A stretch of 41,759 bases of DNA from positions 1 to 41,759 of the forward strand of contig JAUILS010000004.1 of NCBI GenBank assembly GCA_030432975.1, written 5' to 3'. Source of the stretch: Actinomycetes bacterium (GTDB lineage Bacteria; Actinomycetota; Actinomycetes; Propionibacteriales; Nocardioidaceae). Below, piece after piece: positions 39,257 to 41,759 of the stretch (positions are counted from its first letter, which is position 1; each line of letters opens with the position of its first letter). The position numbers and the translations under genes were made by a program. The notes under the pieces are model-generated. The model worked only from the letters and a program-made list of their open reading frames with translations, searched no databases and was not told where the DNA came from.

Positions 39257-39667
39257 ATGAACGACCAGGCCCAGCAGCTCCCGCAGGGCAGCCCCGTCAC
39301 GCCGGCGGCACCCCGCCCGATCGACCCGTCCGCCGAGCGCGGCTGGGGCACCATCACCCATGTCGTGCCGCTCGTCGCGACGGTGGCGTCGGTGGGCACG
39401 CTCGGCTTCGTCGGCTCGCTGGTGATCTACCTGCTCTACAAGGACCGCGGGCCCTTCGTCCGCGCCAACGCCGCCAACTCGCTCAACATCCAGATCACGA
39501 CCGGCATCGTGCTGTTGTTGTCGTTCCCGCTGATGCTCATGCTGGTGGGCTTCCTGACCTACCCGCTGGCCCTGGTCTACGCCGTTGTGATGCACGTCAT
39601 CGGCGCGATCAAGGCCAACAACGGCGAGTGGTGGAACCCGCCGCTCACGCCGCGCTTCGTCCGCTGA
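39257..39667 (+). CDS. DUF4870 domain-containing membrane protein
   Basis: 136 residues. Pro/Gln-rich N-terminus (~25 residues), then three hydrophobic segments (TITHVVPLVATVASVGTLGF; LNIQITTGIVLLLSFPLMLM; YPLALVYAVVMHVIGAIKANNG) with the family pattern YKDRGPFVRANAANSLN between the first two. Function of DUF4870/Tic20-like proteins is not established. ATG with a strong AGGAGG 7 nt upstream, one of the clearest SDs in the window. Two GC-rich hairpins follow the stop. Confidence 0.88.
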   Translation: MNDQAQQLPQGSPVTPAAPRPIDPSAERGWGTITHVVPLVATVASVGTLGFVGSLVIYLLYKDRGPFVRANAANSLNIQITTGIVLLLSFPLMLMLVGFLTYPLALVYAVVMHVIGAIKANNGEWWNPPLTPRFVR

Positions 39668-39674
39668 CGGGCCG

Positions 39675-39700
39675 GGCCACCGCGTCGCGGCGCGGTGGCC
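39675..39700 (+). terminator. Hairpin after DUF4870 gene
   Basis: GGCCACCGCG / CGCGGTGGCC, perfect 10-bp stem, 6-nt loop, no U-tract. Likely a U-less actinobacterial terminator, paired with the next hairpin. Confidence 0.5.
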
Positions 39701-39728
39701 GGCCCCATCCCGCTGCGGTTGGGGCCGG
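39699..39728 (+). terminator. Second hairpin, tandem
   Basis: CCGGCCCCA / TGGGGCCGG, perfect 9-bp stem, 12-nt loop, no U-tract. Shares its first bases with the end of the preceding hairpin. Confidence 0.45.
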
Positions 39729-39752
39729 CGCCACCACCTCGGGCGAACGGCG

Positions 39753-39782
39753 GTGAACCACGACGCGCGCAGGCGCTACCAT
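39753..39782 (+). promoter_or_regulatory. leuS leader promoter (GTGAAC ... TACCAT)
   Basis: TACCAT at 39777-39782 is 7 nt before the leader-peptide ATG at 39790. GTGAAC at 39753-39758 gives an 18-bp spacer and is an acceptable -35. Predicts a transcript beginning at or next to the leader ATG. Confidence 0.6.
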
Positions 39783-39789
39783 GGTGGGC

Positions 39790-39816
39790 ATGCGCAGGAC
39801 CCTGCTCCTTCTCTAG
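39790..39816 (+). CDS. Leucine leader peptide (MRRTLLLL) upstream of leuS
   Basis: Eight codons: ATG CGC AGG ACC CTG CTC CTT CTC then TAG. Half of the peptide is four consecutive leucines read by three different codons (CTG, CTC, CTT, CTC), including CTT, which is rare in this GC-rich genome. An in-frame ATG at 39781 would add MVG but overlaps the -10. Followed directly by a terminator hairpin and then leuS, so it fits a ribosome-mediated transcription attenuator sensing charged tRNA-Leu. Confidence 0.8.
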
Positions 39817-39867
39817 CCGCGTCGACCACACCCGGCGCGGCTGCCCCTCGTGTGCGAGGGGCTTTTT
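39815..39867 (+). promoter_or_regulatory. Attenuator: hairpin plus intrinsic terminator in leuS leader
   Basis: Two adjoining stems. First: AGCCGCG (39815-39821) with CGCGGCT (39836-39842), starting inside the leader TAG stop. Second: GCCCCTCG / CGAGGGGC (39843-39862), perfect 8-bp stem, loop TGTG, then TTTTT, a textbook intrinsic terminator placed 40 bp before the leuS ATG. A terminator there makes sense only if it is conditional. Which segments form the antiterminator was not resolved by eye; GCTCCTT in the leucine codons can also pair with GAGGGGC of the terminator arm. Confidence 0.82.
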
Positions 39868-39907
39868 CATGTCCCGAGCGGATCCCGACAGCGAGCGAGA
39901 GAGACCG

Positions 39908-41759
<1,852 letters not shown>

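Follow-up and report, generated by a model that had tools for sequence, protein, structure and literature searches.

The window analysed here, a stretch of 41,759 nucleotides, is contig 285 of a 3.43-Mb draft genome. On its forward strand (+) it ends in leuS, which encodes leucine--tRNA ligase and extends from 39908 to 41758, where it runs off the window. The leuS frame scores 762.7 bits against TIGR00396 (cut-off 548.4) and shows the Pfam domains tRNA-synt_1_2 and tRNA-synt_1; the closest leuS relatives belong to Nocardioides, with identity of up to 83%. The gene upstream encodes a DUF4870 protein (39257-39667). The leuS frame stays open back to 39695, across the leader and the terminator described below (window 39695-39907), so gene finders may place the start of leuS too early, for instance at ATG 39869; the ATG at 39908, with the purine-rich GAGCGAGAGAGA in front of it, is the likelier start.

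The remaining features also lie on the forward strand. A -10 element, TACCAT (39777-39782), is found 7 nt before the ATG of a short open reading frame (39790-39816) with the codons ATG CGC AGG ACC CTG CTC CTT CTC TAG, which encodes the leader peptide MRRTLLLL; relatives show a leader at the same place and with a Leu run. The control codons are CTG CTC CTT CTC (39802-39813). Stem 1, the proposed antiterminator (39815-39842), is supported by covariation and folding, and its 5' arm begins inside the leader stop codon. The arms AGCCGCGUCG (39815-39824) and CGGCGCGGCU (39833-39842) form 10 pairs, one of them G-U, and stem 1 alone reaches -18.9 kcal/mol. It is followed by an intrinsic terminator (39843-39867), which consists of a perfect 8-bp stem (39843-39850 with 39855-39862) and TTTTT (39863-39867), and reaches -15.7 kcal/mol alone. 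A promoter scan detected no promoter-like site between the terminator and leuS. The original prediction had named TACCAT 7 nt before an eight-codon ORF ending in four Leu codons, the perfect 8-bp stem with TTTTT and leuS downstream of it, and all of these were located as described; it had also proposed a 7-bp stem starting in the stop codon, whose starting point is right but whose length is 10 pairs.

No E. coli-type promoter was recognised in front of the leader (0 matches in a promoter scan). A weak hexamer, TGAACC (39754-39759), separated from the -10 element by a 17-nt spacer, is the sole -35-like sequence at the leader; read from the sequence, it is doubtful as a -35 because the scan missed it and it is not conserved in the family, and no -35 conservation was found among the aligned leuS leaders. 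The TAnnnT geometry of the -10 element, on the other hand, is kept: 98 of the 100 leaders show it 6-7 nt upstream of an in-frame ATG or GTG (6 nt in 84 and 7 nt in 14), against 3.0 per 100 expected at that spacing in shuffled upstream sequence. The proposed promoter is thus borne out in its TACCAT and spacing, but not as a recognisable E. coli-type promoter or in a conserved -35. Leaderless promoters of S. lividans have a -10 of the form TAnnnT at a mean distance of 6.3 nt from the start, and the leuL2 leader of that species is leaderless (PMC8079986). Because of this and of the fixed distance between TAnnnT and the start codon, the leaderless start of the leuS leader ORF, which had been suggested from the window, is strongly supported by promoter geometry, and transcription likely starts at 39790.

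The upstream regions of 109 leuS loci were read by simple rules before any model existed, and by these heuristics most of them show the same order of parts. A covariance model, R1, was built from 24 leaders, that of the window among them, and used to align 100 leuS leaders; on the window it gives 87.3 bits (E 8e-18 for the whole genome), the window being one of the 24 sequences of the model. The leader architecture in the window is more than chance, since its fold of -41.5 kcal/mol compares with -26.6 +/- 3.3 for shuffled sequences (z -4.55, reached by 0 of 200 shuffles), one terminator was found in the region where 0.1 were expected, the order of parts is kept in most of the 109 loci and R1 scores it as stated.

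Leaders of leuS usually carry three Leu codons, and 93 of the 100 have CTT as the third (39808-39810 in the window). Within leuS genes, CTT accounts for 1.8% of 3,528 Leu codons; its place in the leader may be due to its being slow and rare or to a constraint on the RNA. Exactly one codon separates CUU from stem 1. Counted from the first base of the CUU codon, the stop codon follows at 6 nt in 47 leaders (TAG) and at 15 nt in 49, four leaders being exceptions, and the gap between stem 1 and the terminator is 0 nt in 96 leaders and 1 nt in four. The spacing between the Leu codons and stem 1 is held constant, and so is that between stem 1 and the terminator. Length varies in the stretch of leader upstream of the Leu run and in the loops of the two hairpins.

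On the structure-fitted alignment, two-sided changes were found at 12 of 17 pairs, with 147 cells compared to 50 +/- 8 in shuffled alignments. As a fitted alignment leans toward the structure, the covariation analysis was repeated on a structure-blind alignment, in which the strongest signals include the stem 1 pairs 34-45, 32-47, 33-46, and 31-48 and the terminator pairs 54-73, 58-69, and 60-67 (numbered with A39790 as 1); covariation in this alignment showed no third helix. The stop-codon base 39814 also covaries with the terminator base 39843, a U at the first going with a G at the second and a C with an A, which probably reflects two leader lineages, of UAG and UGA forms, and was set aside. 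The check suggested by the original prediction was to look upstream of leuS in relatives for a conserved Leu run and for stem covariation, and both were found; the conserved Leu run and the covariation of stem 1 and the terminator support the interpretation of the element as an attenuator before leuS.

R1 matches at E <= 0.01 were found in 183 of 390 good genomes of the class, although the weakest of them may be chance, and in a phylum-wide draw 33 of 391 genomes pass E <= 1e-4, three of them being strong matches in one genus outside the class. All 37 leuS-type matches whose surroundings were read lie directly before leuS. Most sampled genomes of the window's genus carry the leuS attenuator, and it is present in Nocardioidaceae, Micrococcaceae, Propionibacteriaceae, Streptosporangiales and others. 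By this search it is absent from five Nocardioides relatives (L091, L093, L094, L095, and L100); most of these show a TATCCT box about 6-7 nt before a GTG, which suggests that their leuS may itself be leaderless. Upstream of leuS in Arthrobacter sp. MYb214 and MYb213 (L072 and L079) there are divergent leaders, MNPKRNLA and MHFQRNLG, each ending at a stop codon. Their only Leu codon is a rare CTA, TAGAAT precedes the ATG by 6 nt, and a hairpin and a terminator are present; the Leu-run rule applied to the 109 loci misses these leaders. In Streptomyces-like genomes (L152-L156) the attenuator precedes a LeuS only about 40% identical to that of the window, so the leader is kept across divergent LeuS types; the LeuS proteins of L157 and L158 are 66-69% identical to that of the window.

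R1 also matches elsewhere in the same genome, at a leader before cimA that encodes MHHLEIIIA (ending ATC ATC ATT GCC TAG) and is followed by a stem and a terminator (L145:508-593, corresponding to G000:C74:17207-17292). The gene (648-2258) encodes a citramalate synthase according to TIGR00977 (638.9 bits). Five other genomes of the genus show a like leader before cimA, and the last control codon is ATT in all six cimA leaders, own genome included; in cimA, ilvB and leuS of the own genome, ATT is used for 0 of 65 Ile codons. No relevant publication on a cimA leader attenuator turned up in a literature search. Before ilvB, whose gene starts at 756, there is a further leader with a terminator (L144:563-669, G000:C74:1562-1668), which, read from the ATG at 561, encodes MCCEQLVLSRRVG up to its stop codon and resembles the S. 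lividans ilvL peptide MRTRILVLGKRVG (PMC8079986).

Taken as a whole model, and judged from sequence, the element is very probably an orthologue of the attenuator predicted in Streptomyces and controls leuS by ribosome-mediated attenuation of transcription. The transcript would begin at the AUG of the leaderless leader ORF. When Leu-tRNA is sufficient, the ribosome would reach the stop codon and cover the 5' arm of stem 1, which would then not form; without stem 1 the terminator would form unopposed and leuS would be left untranscribed. When Leu-tRNA is short, the ribosome would wait at the first or second Leu codon with its front edge just before stem 1, and the 10-bp stem would form against the base of the terminator, hindering its completion inside RNA polymerase and allowing readthrough into leuS. 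The abutting stem could act by keeping the lowest terminator pairs from forming in the RNA exit channel. We infer a leucine response of leuS through this leader, by which the enzyme would probably be raised when leucine-charged tRNA is low.

The 100 leaders were each folded with the ribosome at five positions, assuming that the ribosome covers 16 bases, counted from the start of the P-site codon. The modelled probability of stem 1 is 0.82 without a ribosome, 0.83 with the first Leu codon in the A site, 0.59 at the second Leu codon, 0.17 at the third and 0.00 at the stop codon, and that of the terminator is 0.95-0.98 in every state. Since stem 1 alone changes with ribosome position, the ribosome in this model gates stem 1 and nothing else. 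Because leuS is expected to be switched on by starvation, stem 1 is most simply read as the antiterminator. With the stop codon at +6 or +15, as in 96 of the 100 leaders, a ribosome that has reached it would always cover the 5' arm. The terminator is predicted at all ribosome positions, so that the switch is invisible to equilibrium folding, which counts against the model. The geometry suggests that stem 1 opposes the terminator by abutting it and not by sharing bases with it, and we give this part of the model an even chance; a literature search, covering titles and abstracts, for an effect of a hairpin directly upstream of a terminator yielded no direct precedent. Two further observations speak against the model: five relatives are without the attenuator, and the most conserved rare codon is the third, where a stalled ribosome is predicted to disturb stem 1 already.

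It is mainly this conserved rare CUU at the third codon that leads us to retain another reading, in which stem 1 helps the terminator. A ribosome at the third codon would cover stem 1, which is largely lost in that state (0.17), and so weaken termination, whereas a finishing ribosome would leave quickly and both hairpins, set in tandem with zero gap, would form; the element would still attenuate in response to leucine, but stem 1 would play the opposite part. We consider this unlikely, as the ORF ends within or beyond the 5' arm in 96 of 100 leaders, so that the finishing ribosome would cover stem 1 too, and the terminator is already strong by itself (-15.7 kcal/mol).

Strand exchange of the classical trp-operon type, with an antiterminator that shares bases with the terminator, is how the Streptomyces leuS leaders were published, namely as 'classical candidate attenuators' with antiterminator and terminator hairpins (PMC1262725), and one shared pair, U39814-G39843, is possible in the window. 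However, such an antiterminator was found neither by covariation, which shows no third helix, nor by folding the 100 leaders with the ribosome at the five positions. The 5' arm of the terminator pairs with upstream sequence at a probability of only 0.04 across the 100 folded leaders, a value that covers secondary structure of the RNA by itself, and stem 1 adjoins the terminator with a gap of 0-1 nt in all 100. Strand exchange is accordingly improbable, and a scheme of two mutually exclusive folds needs revision here, as the analysis gave no fold in which the terminator arms are sequestered. Finally, it is hardly credible that this is the ordinary terminator of the DUF4870 gene with a chance Leu-rich ORF beside it and leuS transcribed from elsewhere: the terminator does sit between that gene, which ends at 39667, and leuS, but the element is kept in front of leuS although only 19 of 110 leuS loci have a DUF4870 homologue, the scan detected nothing promoter-like between the terminator and leuS, and the conservation of the -10, the start codon, the Leu run and the register would be left without explanation.

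For the preferred attenuator, with stem 1 as the antiterminator, we tentatively propose, at somewhat less than even confidence, a class-wide design without strand exchange. An abutting ribosome-gated hairpin would block the terminator by position alone, a rare synonym ending in U would serve as the last control codon (CUU for leuS, AUU for cimA), and the distance from the control codons to the hairpin would be fixed to the nucleotide. The attenuator would form a feedback loop, as the sensed tRNA is charged by the regulated enzyme itself, and its fixed register, abutting hairpins and single rare control codon offer a compact, testable model of termination gated by a leaderless ribosome. The Ile version before cimA suggests a modular design. 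The leuS attenuator is not confined to Streptomyces but widespread in actinomycetes, and it has no Rfam family: Rfam, T-box included, gave no match at gathering score for the leuS leader, and the sub-threshold matches to anti-hemB and Chlorobi-1 are unrelated and look like hairpin-plus-U matches.

Several known systems resemble this leader in part. The mycobacterial leaderless poly-Cys short ORFs (Canestrari et al. 2020, cited in PMC13236596) share a leaderless short ORF in which a run of one codon serves to sense its amino acid; they differ in preceding cysteine genes and, in that citation, are given as a case of translation attenuation and not of an intrinsic terminator. The LEU element before leuA (PMC1262725) shares a Leu-run leader peptide in Actinobacteria, but it has a pseudoknot, a pairing of Leu codons with the Shine-Dalgarno sequence and no usual terminator. 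A LEU-type pairing of the Leu codons with the leuS Shine-Dalgarno sequence was rejected, with -10.1 kcal/mol for own, -10.7 for swapped and -10.4 for shuffled sequences in 99 loci.

The ilvB or ilvBN(H)C attenuators of Actinobacteria (C. glutamicum; the ilvB-II motif, PMC10272879; M. tuberculosis ilvB1, PMC13236596) share an upstream ORF with branched-chain codons, a ribosome-maskable hairpin and a terminator, but belong to another gene and use mixed Leu, Val and Ile codons. In the scheme put forward for M. tuberculosis ilvB1 the ribosome works by the same logic: the hairpin can form when the ribosome stalls before reaching it and is masked when the ribosome arrives at the stop codon. Replacement of the ilvB1 control codons abolished induction (PMC13236596); unlike the leuS leader, that of ilvB1 is not leaderless, to judge from its length, and is drawn with mutually exclusive folds (PMC13236596). 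Exchange of the presumed control codons in the ilvB leader of S. coelicolor was without effect (cited in PMC1262725), which indicates that a convincing leader alone does not prove regulation.

The closest system is the leuS attenuator of Streptomyces. Attenuators of leuS were predicted in S. avermitilis and S. coelicolor (Seliverstov et al. 2005, PMC1262725), and RNA-seq of S. lividans showed leuL2, a leaderless ORF encoding MRAVRLLLSEPR up to its stop codon, followed by a terminator before leuS (PMC8079986); these earlier papers cover only two or three Streptomyces species and term the attenuator classical (PMC1262725, PMC8079986). In a search that reached few subscription papers, no description was found of the spread beyond Streptomyces, the fixed CUU and register, or the absence of an overlapping antiterminator. 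R1 matches genome G443 (L152) with 56.1 bits at a leader before leuS that encodes MRAVRLLLSEPR, the same peptide as leuL2. From this match and the earlier Streptomyces descriptions, the leuS leader of the window is, by its predicted parts, a member of the leuS attenuator type already described in Streptomyces. Both are found by the same covariance model, and both consist of a leaderless short ORF with a Leu run, a hairpin and a U-run terminator before leuS; they differ in that the window shows the short UAG form, with eight codons of which four are Leu, whereas the Streptomyces ORF reads on through stem 1 (xEPR, then UGA).
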